From positions 62,001 to 126,000 of the forward strand of contig JAUXYJ010000002.1 in NCBI GenBank assembly GCA_030694465.1: a DNA stretch of 64,000 nt, in the 5' to 3' direction. A program made the translations under genes and the position numbers. Positions within the stretch are counted from its first letter, which is position 1, and every line of letters starts with the position of its first letter. Below the pieces are notes generated by a model. It did no database searches. It was not told the origin of the DNA and was given only the letters and a program-made list of their open reading frames with translations. The DNA comes from Deltaproteobacteria bacterium (GTDB lineage Bacteria; Myxococcota_A; Polyangia; Polyangiales; Ga0077539). Positions 59,264-64,000 of this stretch are shown piece by piece.

Positions 59264-60718
59264 ATGAGCAAGACGAACCACGGGGCGGCCGGGGCGATGA
59301 CACGAGCGATGACTGCGGCCACCCAAACTACGGCGCGCCGCAAGGTGTTGCGCGTTGGGCTAATTGAGGGAGCGGCGATCACCGAAGAGCGCGTGTTTGA
59401 TGGCCAGCACACGGTGACCATCGGCGCGGATTCGGGAGCGACTTTTACCGTCGAATCTAAGCACGACACCGCGAGCGTGGTGCTCTTTCGCCCGCTCCGT
59501 GACGGACGCTGGGAGCTCGTGCTCAACGACTCGCTCTCAGGGCGCGTTCTCTTGGACGGATCACTCCAGACTGTCGAGTCGCTGCGGACGCAAGGGCTGC
59601 GCGCGGTGGCCCTCCACGACAACACCCGGGGGCGGCTGCTCTTCGAAGGCTGCGCCGTGTTGTTTCAGTTCGTCGACGCGCTGCCAGTGGCACCTCGGTC
59701 ACAGCTCCCGAGCGCGATCAAGCGCAACGCGCTCAGCGACCTCGACTGGACCTACAGCGCGTGCCTCGCGGGCTTTCTTACGCTCGCTTTTAGCGGCATG
59801 GGCTACGTCGAGTTTGGCTACGACCCCATCGCGAGCGAGCTGTTTGATCTTCAGGCCGAGGTGCGCCGAGTTCAGCTCGCTGCGGCCCCGGCGGCAGAGC
59901 CTGGGCCCCCACCCGTAAACAACAACGAGCAGGCCGCAGAGGCTCCCCAGGGGCCCACAGCGCCTGGGCGCACTGCCGCGCGTCGGTATGGCCCTCCGTA
60001 CCCCTCTGCGGGCCGCCCAGCGAGCCATTCAGCGAGCACGACCAACACCGCGGCGGTCCAAGCAGAGCGCGCAGCCGACGCCGCCCTGCGTGCCCTTGCA
60101 AACAGCAGCGAGTTTCAGAGCCTCGTCAACGCGACGCAGACCGGGCACGGCTCGGCCCTCGCGCGCATTGCCAATGGACAAGGGCTTATGACCGGAAGCA
60201 CCGAAGCCCTGCAAAATGTCACAGGGATCACCAACAACGAGCGCAACGGAGGCGTCCGTCGCACGGGACTTTTGGCCTCTACGGGCCCCGCTGGGCAGCG
60301 GCTCGGCATCAGCGCAACCGCGCAGAATCACGGCAACGAAATCGGCACGAGCGACACGCCACGCGAAGAGCGCGTCATCACGACTCGGGTGTCCATGGGC
60401 TCGATAGAGACCGACGTGCCATCGGGACCTGAGATGCCAACGGACGAAATCGCCCGGGTTTTTCGCCAGAATCTCAGCGCCATTCGGAGCTGTTACACCA
60501 TGGGCCTGCGCAACAATCCCTCACTGCAGGGGCGCGTCTCGATTGTGTTCTCTGTGGGCACGAGCGGGCGTGTCCTCGGCGCGGTCGCGGTCAGCGGGCT
60601 GACCAATGGCGACGACGTGCACCAGTGCATTGGCAACCGTGTGCAACGGTATGTGTTTCCGCAGCTTCGAGAGCGCGTCGAGGTCGGTTTTCCGGTGGTA
60701 CTGATTCCGGGGCAGTGA
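59264..60718 (+). CDS. AgmX/PglI-type TonB-like protein
   Basis: A 484-aa protein. An N-terminal beta domain (about residues 28-140; VLRVGLIEGAAITEERVFD, HTVTIGADSGATFTV, WELVLNDSLSGRVLLDG) resembles the FHA-like domain usual at the start of these proteins. A membrane segment follows (LAGFLTLAFSGMGYVEFG), then an Ala/Pro-rich spacer, and a C-terminal domain with EIARVFRQNLSAIRSCYTMG, LQGRVSIVFSVGTSGRVLGA and CIGNRVQRYVFPQ. That C-terminus is the AgmX/PglI domain of myxobacterial motility and TonB-like proteins (R-x-C-Y followed by I-x-x-x-G). It probably spans the periplasm. It is coupled to the M19 gene downstream. Confidence 0.8.
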   Translation: MSKTNHGAAGAMTRAMTAATQTTARRKVLRVGLIEGAAITEERVFDGQHTVTIGADSGATFTVESKHDTASVVLFRPLRDGRWELVLNDSLSGRVLLDGSLQTVESLRTQGLRAVALHDNTRGRLLFEGCAVLFQFVDALPVAPRSQLPSAIKRNALSDLDWTYSACLAGFLTLAFSGMGYVEFGYDPIASELFDLQAEVRRVQLAAAPAAEPGPPPVNNNEQAAEAPQGPTAPGRTAARRYGPPYPSAGRPASHSASTTNTAAVQAERAADAALRALANSSEFQSLVNATQTGHGSALARIANGQGLMTGSTEALQNVTGITNNERNGGVRRTGLLASTGPAGQRLGISATAQNHGNEIGTSDTPREERVITTRVSMGSIETDVPSGPEMPTDEIARVFRQNLSAIRSCYTMGLRNNPSLQGRVSIVFSVGTSGRVLGAVAVSGLTNGDDVHQCIGNRVQRYVFPQLRERVEVGFPVVLIPGQ

Positions 60719-60741: not shown

Positions 60742-61842
60742 ATGCGCCGCAACGCACCCATGAAGATTGACTACCGCGACTGGCGACAAGACCCGGACAC
60801 CTGGGCGCTCACCCTGGGCGTCTCGCGCACAGCGATTGATCTCTATCTCGACTGCGACGTGATCGACCTGCACATCGAGCCCTTCTTGTGGCACCGATTG
60901 GTCGGGTACGACATGTTCGCCCGGCACGGATCGGGGCTCTTTAACGGGGGATTTTACTCACAGACTGACCTTCCACGGATCCGTGAAGCGCAGATCACCG
61001 GCGCGACCTGGGTGATCACAACGAACCCCGCGCGCACTGCAGAGGGCCGCGCAGAGACGTTTACGCGCAACCTCGATGAGCTCGTCGGAGAGCTCTCACG
61101 CGTGCCCGACGAGGTCGCGGTTGTGCGCAACACGCGAGAGTACCGAGCGGCGCGCGCGCGAGGAGTGCACGGAGCGTTCTTGGGGATCCAGGGAGGCAAC
61201 GCGCTGGATCACTCACTCGATGCGCTCGACCGTCTGCGCGACGACCTGATCTTGCGGATCACGCTGGTCCATCTCACGTCCTCGAGGCTCGGCGTGACCA
61301 ACTCGCCTGCGTCGATTCTAGCTGGAGATAACCTAGGTCTTAGTGATTTTGGCCGAGACTACGTGCGCAGACTTAACGAAAAGAAGGTCTTCGTCGATCT
61401 CGCACACATCGCCCGCAAGGCCTTCTTCGATGCGCTCGAAGTGCATGACAAATCGCAGCCCGTGTTGGTCACCCATACGGGCGTCACGGGGGTGACTCCG
61501 CACTGGCGCAATGTCGACGACGAGCAGATCCGCGCGGTCGCAGACCTGGGCGGAGTGGTCGGAGTGATGTACCAGAGCTCGTTCTTGGGAGATCCCACTT
61601 GGCGAGGCCAAAGGCTGTCCATTGTGCGTCACCTTGAGCACATCGCGAACGTCGCGGGTGACGACGTTCCCGCGCTTGGGAGCGACTGGGATGGGATGAT
61701 CGTGACCCCACGAGACATGCCCACATGTCTTGAGCTTCCCCGGCTCGTGCAGACCATGCTTGATCGCGAATGGACCCACAGCAGGATCCGCAAGGTGCTG
61801 GGCGCGAACTTCTTAAACACAGTCGAGCGGCTGCGAGGCTGA
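60742..61842 (+). CDS. M19 (renal dipeptidase) family protein
   Basis: A 366-aa protein of the M19 amidohydrolase family. Seen: DVIDLHIEPFLWHR (first metal site), GAFLGIQGGNALDHSLDAL, VFVDLAHIARKAFFDALEVH, PVLVTHTGVTGV (His ligand) and LGSDWDGMIVTPRDMP. Two differences stand out: the usual H-x-D is H-x-E here, and the bridging Glu of the G-x-E-G-G motif is Gln. Activity on dipeptides is therefore doubtful. The start is uncertain: ATG 60742 is used; GTG 60715 would overlap the upstream stop (GTGA) and ATG 60760 (MKIDYRDW) is also plausible. No signal peptide. Confidence 0.8.
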   Translation: MRRNAPMKIDYRDWRQDPDTWALTLGVSRTAIDLYLDCDVIDLHIEPFLWHRLVGYDMFARHGSGLFNGGFYSQTDLPRIREAQITGATWVITTNPARTAEGRAETFTRNLDELVGELSRVPDEVAVVRNTREYRAARARGVHGAFLGIQGGNALDHSLDALDRLRDDLILRITLVHLTSSRLGVTNSPASILAGDNLGLSDFGRDYVRRLNEKKVFVDLAHIARKAFFDALEVHDKSQPVLVTHTGVTGVTPHWRNVDDEQIRAVADLGGVVGVMYQSSFLGDPTWRGQRLSIVRHLEHIANVAGDDVPALGSDWDGMIVTPRDMPTCLELPRLVQTMLDREWTHSRIRKVLGANFLNTVERLRG

Positions 61843-61859: not shown

Positions 61860-63320
61860 TCAGGCCGTAAGAGCGGCGGGCTGTGTGACGCGTTCGACCA
61901 GTGATTTGTATAGCGATTCGTACTGTCGTGCGCAGCGATCCCATGAGAGGTCACGGCGCATCGCGCGGTGACGGACCCGCGCGAGCTGGTCTTTGCGTCG
62001 AAACGCAGCGAGGGCGCGACCGATGGCACCGAAGAGCTCGTCGGGGTCGGGGTTTGAGAAGAGAAACCCTGTGCCACTGTCGAGCTTAGGGTCGCAATCG
62101 ACGACGGCGTCTCGGACGGCGCCCGAGGCGCGCGCTACGGGGATGGTGCCGTAGCGCATCGCGTAGAGGTGCGCGCTTGCGCCTGGTTCGCGACGTGCGG
62201 GAGCGATCCAGAAGTCAGCGCCGGCGAGCACTTTGTGAAAGAACGCTTCGCTGTAAGTCCTGCGAAATGACACACGATCTGGAAATCTCTTCGCCAGGGC
62301 TTCAAACGACTCGACGAGGCTCGCGTCGCCGTCGCCTGCGAGAACCCAGCGCGCGTCGTTGCGAATGATCCGCGCGGCGCATGCGGCGAGGAGATCCATT
62401 CCGCGGGCAGCATCGATGGGGCCTACATACGCAAAGACGGGCGGCTCGGGGCGCGCAGGGAGCCCTGCCTGCTCGGCGAGGTCTGCGCGACATGCTTCGC
62501 GAGGGAGTGTCCCTTCGGCGTCGAAACGCGCGATCAAGTGCGGATCGGTCGCGGGGTTGTAGACGCTAAAATCTACGCCGTGCAGTACGCCCAACACGTC
62601 CTTGCCGCGGTGGGCGAAGACGCCTTCGAGGCCGCGGCCGGACTCGGGCTGCAACAGCTCACGCGCATACGTGGGCGAAGGGACGGTGACCTTGTCGGCC
62701 TTGAGGACACCGTGCTTTAGCCAGCAAACTTTGCCGTAAAACTCGAGTTCGTCCGGCGAAAAGAGCCGCTCGGGAACGTTGATCTCACGCAGCGTGCTCC
62801 GGTCAAACAGGCCGCGCGACTCGGCGTCATACGCGGTGAGGACGGTGCGAATGGAGCGCAGCGAGGCGTCTTTCTCTTGGGCGAGCGAGAGAAAAAGCGG
62901 GACCAACGCGGCAGCCCAGTCGTGCGCATGCACGATGTCGGGCCGCTCGGGTTGAGACTGAATCAGCGCGATCGCGCCTTTGGCGAGCACGGCGAATCTC
63001 TTGTGATCGTCGGCGTGACCGTAGGGTGTTGAACGATCGGTAATTCCTGGAAGATTCAAGAGCGTGACGGTGACGCCGGACGCGAGACGTGCCTCGTAGC
63101 GCTCGATCTCGACGCGCTGCTGCCCGAGCTCGATCGAGAGGGTGCTGAGGCGTTTGGCCAGCGGAATCCCGGCTGATTCTGGAGATCCGTGGAGCAGCGT
63201 CACCACATGAACTCGGTGTCCGAGAGAGCGCAGCGCCTTGGGCAAAGAGGCGCTCACATCGGCAACGGACGATGTGCGAACGAAGGGGGCGACCTCCGGC
63301 GAAACAAAAAGAATCTCCAT
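61860..63320 (-). CDS. Glycogen-synthase-like GT5 glycosyltransferase with altered donor motifs
   Basis: A 486-aa protein clearly of the bacterial glycogen/starch synthase (GT5) family: MEILFVSPEVAPF at the start, HAHDWAAALVPLFL, VPSPTYARELLQPESGRGLE, VLHGVDFSVYNPATDPHLI and a C-terminal REPGASAHLYAMRYGTIPV. Three key spots differ from working GlgA. The K-T-G-G-L loop that binds ADP-glucose reads R-T-S-S-V (residues 15-19). The S-R-L-x3-K-G motif reads G-P-I-D-A-A-R-G. EPCGLTQ reads EPGASAH, although Glu378 is kept. It may use a different donor or be regulatory. The ATG at 63320 begins exactly at the conserved strand. Confidence 0.82.
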   Translation of the reverse strand: MEILFVSPEVAPFVRTSSVADVSASLPKALRSLGHRVHVVTLLHGSPESAGIPLAKRLSTLSIELGQQRVEIERYEARLASGVTVTLLNLPGITDRSTPYGHADDHKRFAVLAKGAIALIQSQPERPDIVHAHDWAAALVPLFLSLAQEKDASLRSIRTVLTAYDAESRGLFDRSTLREINVPERLFSPDELEFYGKVCWLKHGVLKADKVTVPSPTYARELLQPESGRGLEGVFAHRGKDVLGVLHGVDFSVYNPATDPHLIARFDAEGTLPREACRADLAEQAGLPARPEPPVFAYVGPIDAARGMDLLAACAARIIRNDARWVLAGDGDASLVESFEALAKRFPDRVSFRRTYSEAFFHKVLAGADFWIAPARREPGASAHLYAMRYGTIPVARASGAVRDAVVDCDPKLDSGTGFLFSNPDPDELFGAIGRALAAFRRKDQLARVRHRAMRRDLSWDRCARQYESLYKSLVERVTQPAALTA

Positions 63321-63638: not shown

Positions 63639-64000
63639 ATGCTCCGACAATGGCGACTGTTGATCTTGAGCGGTGCACTGTTGAGTGCATTGCAATGTGG
63701 ACCGACGCGTGTAGATCCACCCGGAACTGACGGCGGCGGCGGTGGATCAGACGCTGCGTCTGGAGATGGTGCGGCGGCGACCTGTGGTCTTGACCAGGAC
63801 AACGACGGCATCCCGGACATGTACGAAGGCCTCGGCGACCCCGACGGCGACGGCATCCCGAATCTTCGCGACGACGACTCAGACGGCGACGGGCGCTCGG
63901 ATCGACTCGAGGCGAACCCCTCAGGGGCCTACGATTGTCGACAGCGCCCCGCGGACTCCGATCGCGATGGCATGCCCGACGCGTACGACACGGACTCGGA
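63639..64000 (+). CDS. Lipoprotein with calcium-binding (thrombospondin type 3-like) repeats, N-terminal part
   Basis: The first 120 codons of a gene that runs off the window. A lipoprotein signal ([20 protein letters not shown], Cys20) is followed by a Gly/Asp/Ala linker and then by Asp-rich repeats: [27 protein letters not shown] and DSDRDGMPD, each with the D-x-D-x-D-G calcium loop of thrombospondin type 3 repeats. Such repeats often link a lipid anchor to an OmpA-like or adhesive domain in Myxococcota. The downstream part is not visible, so the end domain is unknown. It is a surface-exposed protein in all likelihood. Confidence 0.8.

Follow-up and report, generated by a model that had tools for sequence, protein, structure and literature searches.

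The 64,000-nucleotide stretch of DNA analyzed here (the window) encodes a glycogen-synthase-like protein of the GT5 family, P0001, in which the motifs of the GT5 fold are accompanied by a largely replaced donor site. The first-pass annotation of this locus had proposed three options for such a protein: an enzyme with a different donor, an inactive regulator, or a component of an unusual polymer system. These options are partly supported by the present analysis, the comparative evidence favoring inactivity as an ADP-glucose transferase.

Donor-site replacement in P0001

The open reading frame and all motifs quoted in the annotation (VSPEVAPF, HAHDWAAALV, NPATDPHL, RTSSV, GPIDAARG, and EPGASAH) were found exactly on the minus strand, and translation of the frame at 61860-63320 (-) revealed no internal stops. 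The features of the gene and its immediate surroundings are as follows.

60742-61842, plus strand: dipeptidase of peptidase family M19, in convergent orientation to the GT5 gene and found at the same position in genomes G027 and G038
61860-63320, minus strand: P0001, degenerate GT5 protein of the GlgA2 clade, 486 aa; ATG at 63320, stop at 61860-61862
63264-63278, minus strand: RTSSV, residues 15-19, replacing the GT5 donor loop K-[TV]-G-G-L (alignment)
63147-63158, minus strand: GlgA2-specific A55-K-R-L58 (consensus ARRL), conserved in GlgA2 whether intact or degenerate and rare in other GT5
62919-62930, minus strand: H131-A-H-D134 of the HAHDW motif; the acceptor-side Asp (E. coli D137) is kept
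62580-62582, minus strand: H247, replacing donor-site Asn246 (alignment)
62403-62420, minus strand: P301..R306 (PIDAAR), replacing R300..K305 (alignment), which bind the donor phosphates (PMC6210743 Table 2, PMC7137382)
62169-62189, minus strand: E378-PGASA-H384, replacing E377-PCGLT-Q383, with the Glu kept (alignment)
62091-62102, minus strand: GlgA2-specific V407-D-C-D410, conserved in both intact and degenerate GlgA2
63639-64000, plus strand: first part of a divergent gene that encodes 799 aa on the longer contig; it adjoins GlgA2 in G027, G038, and G048 (degenerate) and in G005 (intact)

P0001 aligns with E. coli GlgA (PDB 2qzs sequence) over the full length at 31% identity. As annotated, three of the four key residues are changed (K15 to R, R300 to P, and K305 to R) and E377 is retained; the alignment offers no alternative position for the lysine of KTGGL, and the suggestion that the true lysine lies elsewhere in P0001 was rejected on this ground. 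In E. coli GlgA numbering, the changes K15R, R300P, and K305R are joined by G18S, N246H, Q304A, C379G, and G380A, which the annotation had not listed, as it had not listed L19V, H161Y, V211P, L381S, and Q383H. Of the donor-site residues K15, G18, N246, R300, K305, E377, and G380, the roles of which are described in PMC6210743 (Tables 1-2) and PMC7137382, P0001 keeps E377 only. The acceptor-side residues E9, Y95, and D137 are retained (for D137, see PMC6210743 Table 1), so that binding of alpha-glucan by P0001 would still be allowed. Comparison of 105 non-degenerate GT5 sequences gave 58 alignment columns with conservation of 95% or more; P0001 has lost 18 of them.

The same substitution pattern is present in four relatives, namely the genome of the window (G000) and G027, G038, and G048 (69-71% identity), which rules out sequencing error. 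Both sequencing error and a pseudogene were rejected for P0001, given the three independent orthologues that share the pattern and the dN/dS ratios. The latter, calculated from close pairs where comparable and rough for values near saturated dS, are 0.10-0.27 in the clade of the window; the canonical GlgA of these genomes gives 0.14-0.21, and close pairs of intact GlgA2 give 0.13-0.29. P0001 thus combines loss of catalytic residues with purifying selection, by which criterion its sequence would class it as a pseudoenzyme.

The protein scores above the gathering cut-off of PF08323 (GT5, with a GT1-type C-domain; 194.1 vs 22.7 bits) and above the curated cut-off of TIGR02095 glgA (404.9 vs 328.45 bits), and automatic annotation would therefore call it an ADP-glucose glycogen synthase. 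At the same time, it fails every NCBIfam GlgA equivalog cut-off (the PRK00654 series and others), with the best score at 366.3 vs 616 bits and the nearest at 358.1 vs 459, whereas the canonical GlgA of the same genome passes NF001899 (481.2 vs 459 bits). AlphaFold2 predicts a GT-B fold for P0001 (pLDDT 91.5), and the nearest solved structure is E. coli GlgA 2qzs (TM 0.91). A GT-B fold is also predicted for one of the strongly decayed relatives (the GlgA2 of G004, pLDDT 91.1), from an alignment that contains true GT5 sequences.

The GlgA2 clade and repeated loss of the active site

We sampled 145 genomes of the order, which is probably Polyangiales (Myxococcota). A GT5 match was present in 139 of them, and we extracted the sequences and built a maximum likelihood tree of 157, including E. 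coli and 16 outsiders. The tree places P0001 among 103 sequences that form a clade with support 0.967, from which the canonical GlgA of its own genome is excluded. We call this clade GlgA2; it is a vertically inherited second GT5 paralogue found throughout the order. Sequences were classified as degenerate if at least two of K15, R300, K305, and E377 were replaced. By this definition, 52 of the 157 sequences are degenerate, all of them within GlgA2, compared with none of the 55 outside it. The GlgA2 active site is intact in 49 sampled genomes and degenerate in 52, and a few genomes have no GlgA2 match. Two GT5 sequences that are otherwise intact have R or Q in place of K15.

The nearest intact relatives of P0001 belong to the sister genera g2 and g3 of the same family, f1, and have a complete active site at 44-48% identity. 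In g2 (G005), the intact gene lies at the same place as the window gene and adjoins the same divergent gene. The occurrence of the latter beside both degenerate and intact copies fixes their positional orthology. Family f12 provides a second case of positional orthology between intact and degenerate GlgA2, as both lie next to the same pseudouridine-synthase gene.

The tree contains four all-degenerate clades, of 4 (including P0001), 34, 13, and 1 tips, with supports of 1.0, 0.80, and 0.66 for the multi-tip clades. On a 45-sequence subset, the AU test rejected a single origin of decay (p=4.7e-5) as well as one origin for the three groups outside f1 (p=0.009); a joint origin of the window clade and the 34-tip group (p=0.20) and of the 13-tip group and L200 (p=0.155) was not rejected. 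At least two losses thus follow from sequence alone, and three if the neighbor shared by window-type and intact g2 copies is added. The maximum likelihood topology suggests four losses of the GlgA2 donor site.

The degenerate GlgA2 proteins keep K15 in 2%, G18 in 4%, K305 in 2%, R300 in 8%, N246 in 15%, and E377 in 17% of cases. The replacements are scattered and form no shared new site, and the acceptor-side residues have also decayed in many of these proteins. They nevertheless stay full-length at deep divergence. A set of GlgA2-specific residues is kept in intact and degenerate members alike: K28, A55-R56-R57-L58, R265, D267, A387, V407-D408-C409, L413, R435, R462, and R465, including the clade-specific motifs LARRL, RxD, and VVDCD. 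Retention is about 90-100% at most of these positions; P0001 has K56 within ARRL 55-58.

Genomic context and glycogen genes

The remark in the first-pass annotation that no other glg gene lies beside the GT5 gene holds locally. Elsewhere in the genome of the window, contig C43 encodes a second GT5 with intact KAGGL, SRLNDQKG, and EPCGLNQ motifs, that is, a canonical GlgA (GlgA1), and GlgC was found above the cut-off on contig C45. P0001 is therefore not the glycogen synthase of this cell. The annotation had also proposed a search for orthologues with the RTSSV-type loop and for a normal GlgA in the same genomes: the pattern recurs in the four genomes named above, and GlgA1 and GlgC are present both in G000 and in g4. 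The genome of the window further contains glycogen phosphorylase (C47), MalQ (C44), and a GH57 branching-enzyme C-domain (C17); GlgE was not found in a search of this genome.

The GH13 branching enzyme GlgB (TIGR01515) was not found in the whole genomes of G000, G027, G038, and G048, whereas it scores above 870 bits in all nine other sampled genomes of f1; a GH57-type branching-enzyme C-domain is present in the four genomes where it is missing. A link between GlgA2 decay and GlgB loss was considered for f1 and rejected, as it represents a single event and fails elsewhere, many genomes with degenerate GlgA2 keeping GlgB.

Of the 49 genomes with intact GlgA2, 46 have GlgC, vs 26 of the 52 with degenerate GlgA2 (Fisher p=6e-7, with shared ancestry ignored). 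All six degenerate-GlgA2 genomes that lack GlgA1 and have GlgC and GlgB carry GlgE, which fits replacement of GlgA by the GlgE pathway. In 17 of the 52 degenerate-GlgA2 genomes searched, none of GlgA1, GlgC, GlgB, and GlgE was detected; these absences come from draft genomes, many of them 90-100% complete and some below, and some may be false. The persistence of degenerate GlgA2 where no glycogen gene was detected argues against a glucan-binding role beside GlgA1 as the core function that all members share.

No glycogen, trehalose, or polymer cluster was found near GlgA2 in the neighborhoods examined across families, and the proposed unusual polymer system thus finds no support in gene context. 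The neighbors are housekeeping genes that differ by family, with no conserved gene pointing to a partner. MiaA is the neighbor in g3 and g5. In f3, f5, and f9, GlgA2 lies beside signal peptidase and a TsaB-like gene, and in f12 it is accompanied by genes for HSP70, PurH, an amino-acid kinase, and a pseudouridine synthase. With TsaB-like and MiaE genes near GlgA2, tRNA-modification genes recur beside it in several families.

Several details of these neighborhoods were observed in addition. At the degenerate loci L253 to L273 (f3, f5, and f9), the TsaB-like gene flanks GlgA2, with MiaE and signal peptidase close by. In g3 and g5, intact GlgA2 and the beginning of miaA (tRNA isopentenyltransferase) share 4 bases (L129:12672-15079 and L132:8174-10602), which suggests a translationally coupled pair. 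In the window, a gene at 59264-60718 near the M19 dipeptidase and GT5 genes encodes a 484-aa protein without a Pfam match, and the divergent 799-aa protein has Asp-rich repeats and no Pfam match either. The arrangement of the 484-aa gene, M19 dipeptidase, GT5, and 799-aa gene is conserved in G027 and G038.

Possible roles of the degenerate proteins

Taken together, these data make it reasonably probable that P0001 is a pseudoenzyme: a GlgA2 protein that is without catalytic activity, or at any rate unable to use ADP-glucose, and that has been preserved for a function other than catalysis, probably the binding of a partner. GlgA2 would have had two functions, one catalytic and tied to ADP-glucose, the other non-catalytic. 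Catalysis would have been lost repeatedly once its task had been taken over elsewhere, by GlgA1 or the GlgE pathway, or once glycogen had been given up, and the non-catalytic function would have kept the protein. The remaining GT-B body may then act as a scaffold to which a partner, either a protein or a small molecule, binds, with the second role carried by a putative clade-specific surface comprising K28, ARRL 55-58, R265, D267, V407-D408-C409, L413, R435, R462, and R465; these residues may also be structural rather than a partner surface. The broader proposition that GlgA2 forms a new bacterial GT5 pseudoenzyme family with an essential or beneficial role outside glycogen, in which catalysis was lost at least two to four times and which persists without the classical glycogen pathway, seems to us evenly balanced.

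The option of a different donor bears mainly on the four-member clade of the window, where the site of g1 and g4 could have adapted to a donor different from ADP-glucose; R15 and R305 would then stand in for the lysines, and H247 would contribute to binding. The clade is under purifying selection, K15R and K305R are conservative and keep the charge, E377 and the acceptor residues are kept, and all four members have the same residue at 14 of the 18 invariant positions that changed; this would also fit a re-tuned active site. However, R300 has become Pro and the Gly-Gly loop is lost, GlgA2 decays elsewhere without any common new site, and no sugar-nucleotide gene cluster lies nearby. Moreover, the 18 lost columns agree between P0001 and g4 at 78%, near the 70% of all columns and well below the 98% of the kept invariant columns. 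We thus regard an altered-donor enzyme as unlikely, and slow pseudogenization, in which GlgA2 is a redundant duplicate on its way out, as far less likely still. The catalytic site is lost in half of the sampled genomes and the gene has no match in a few, which speaks for pseudogenization, but this reading is poorly compatible with dN/dS ratios like those of the active paralogue, with full-length frames at deep divergence, with the retention of clade-specific residues, and with the fact that even a heavily decayed member is confidently predicted as GT-B.

The inactive regulator stands only in its first half. Inactivity is favored by repeated loss of the donor site with differing residues, whereas regulation of glycogen is a guess, as the decayed protein persists without glg genes. 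A special case of the pseudoenzyme reading is a pseudo-synthase that binds glucan and thereby primes GlgA1 or positions it, following the precedent of plant starch synthase 5 (SS5) in granule initiation. Such a helper is possible for the genome of the window and g4, which contain GlgA1 and GlgC, and P0001 retains the acceptor-side residues E9, Y95, and D137. Furthermore, the four window-type genomes are alone in their family in lacking a detected GH13 GlgB, and their alpha-glucan chemistry may differ. We nevertheless consider it doubtful, since 17 sampled genomes have the decayed paralogue and none of the four glycogen genes detected, acceptor residues decay in many degenerate proteins, and the coinciding loss of GlgB counts as a single event in evolution.

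Comparison of P0001 as a putative pseudoenzyme with known systems revealed both common and distinct features. It shares with bacterial GlgA (GT5, TIGR02095) the full-length homology, the GT-B fold, E377, and the acceptor-side residues, and differs in that K15, G18, N246, R300, K305, and G380 are replaced and a separate canonical GlgA exists in the genome. With the intact GlgA2 of the sister genera (e.g., G005 and G056) and of f12, of which it is the positional and phylogenetic orthologue, it has ARRL, RxD, and VVDCD in common; unlike P0001, these proteins contain KVGGL, R300, K305, E377, and CG/SGL, and their genomes almost always contain GlgC. Plant SS5 (SSV) offers a functional precedent: a GT5-derived body is kept without enzymatic activity beside active paralogues, and P0001 may act beside canonical GlgA somewhat as SS5 does beside SS4. 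SS5, however, is eukaryotic, related to SS4, and has a known partner (MRC/PII1), whereas the bacterial proteins derive independently, and on several occasions, from GlgA2, and the decayed forms also occur in genomes without a detected glycogen synthase. Two glycogen synthase paralogues in one bacterium are known from Synechocystis (GlgA1/GlgA2); in the parts of PMC3956634 consulted, these are studied as glycogen-producing isoforms, and a degenerate paralogue is not the subject.

Pseudoenzymes and a plant GT5 pseudo-synthase are already known kinds; what would be new as a variant is a GlgA paralogue in bacteria that has decayed repeatedly. The family is unreported in the literature that we covered on bacterial glycogen-synthase pseudoenzymes and myxobacterial glycogen synthase paralogues, which included few subscription papers and is weak evidence of novelty. 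Annotation as GlgA, likely for the relatives of P0001 as well, would falsely imply glycogen storage in genomes without any other detected glg gene. A protein that repeatedly and independently loses its active site but keeps its body would amount to a natural experiment that separates catalytic residues from those of a second function, and the GlgA2 comparison yields a short list of putative second-function residues for mutation. Intact and decayed copies are mixed among close relatives, which makes the question directly testable.

Two groups of sequences were noted at the margins of the clade. The GlgA2 of g52 (L017-L019, L021, L023, and L027) has KVTGL and HD instead of HN and keeps R300, K305, and E377, possibly representing an intermediate state. 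Extremely decayed GT5-like proteins, with piecewise matches to the degenerate profile, were observed in G011, G017, G031, G063, G066, and G087; some of them may be an end stage of GlgA2 decay or have a further function.
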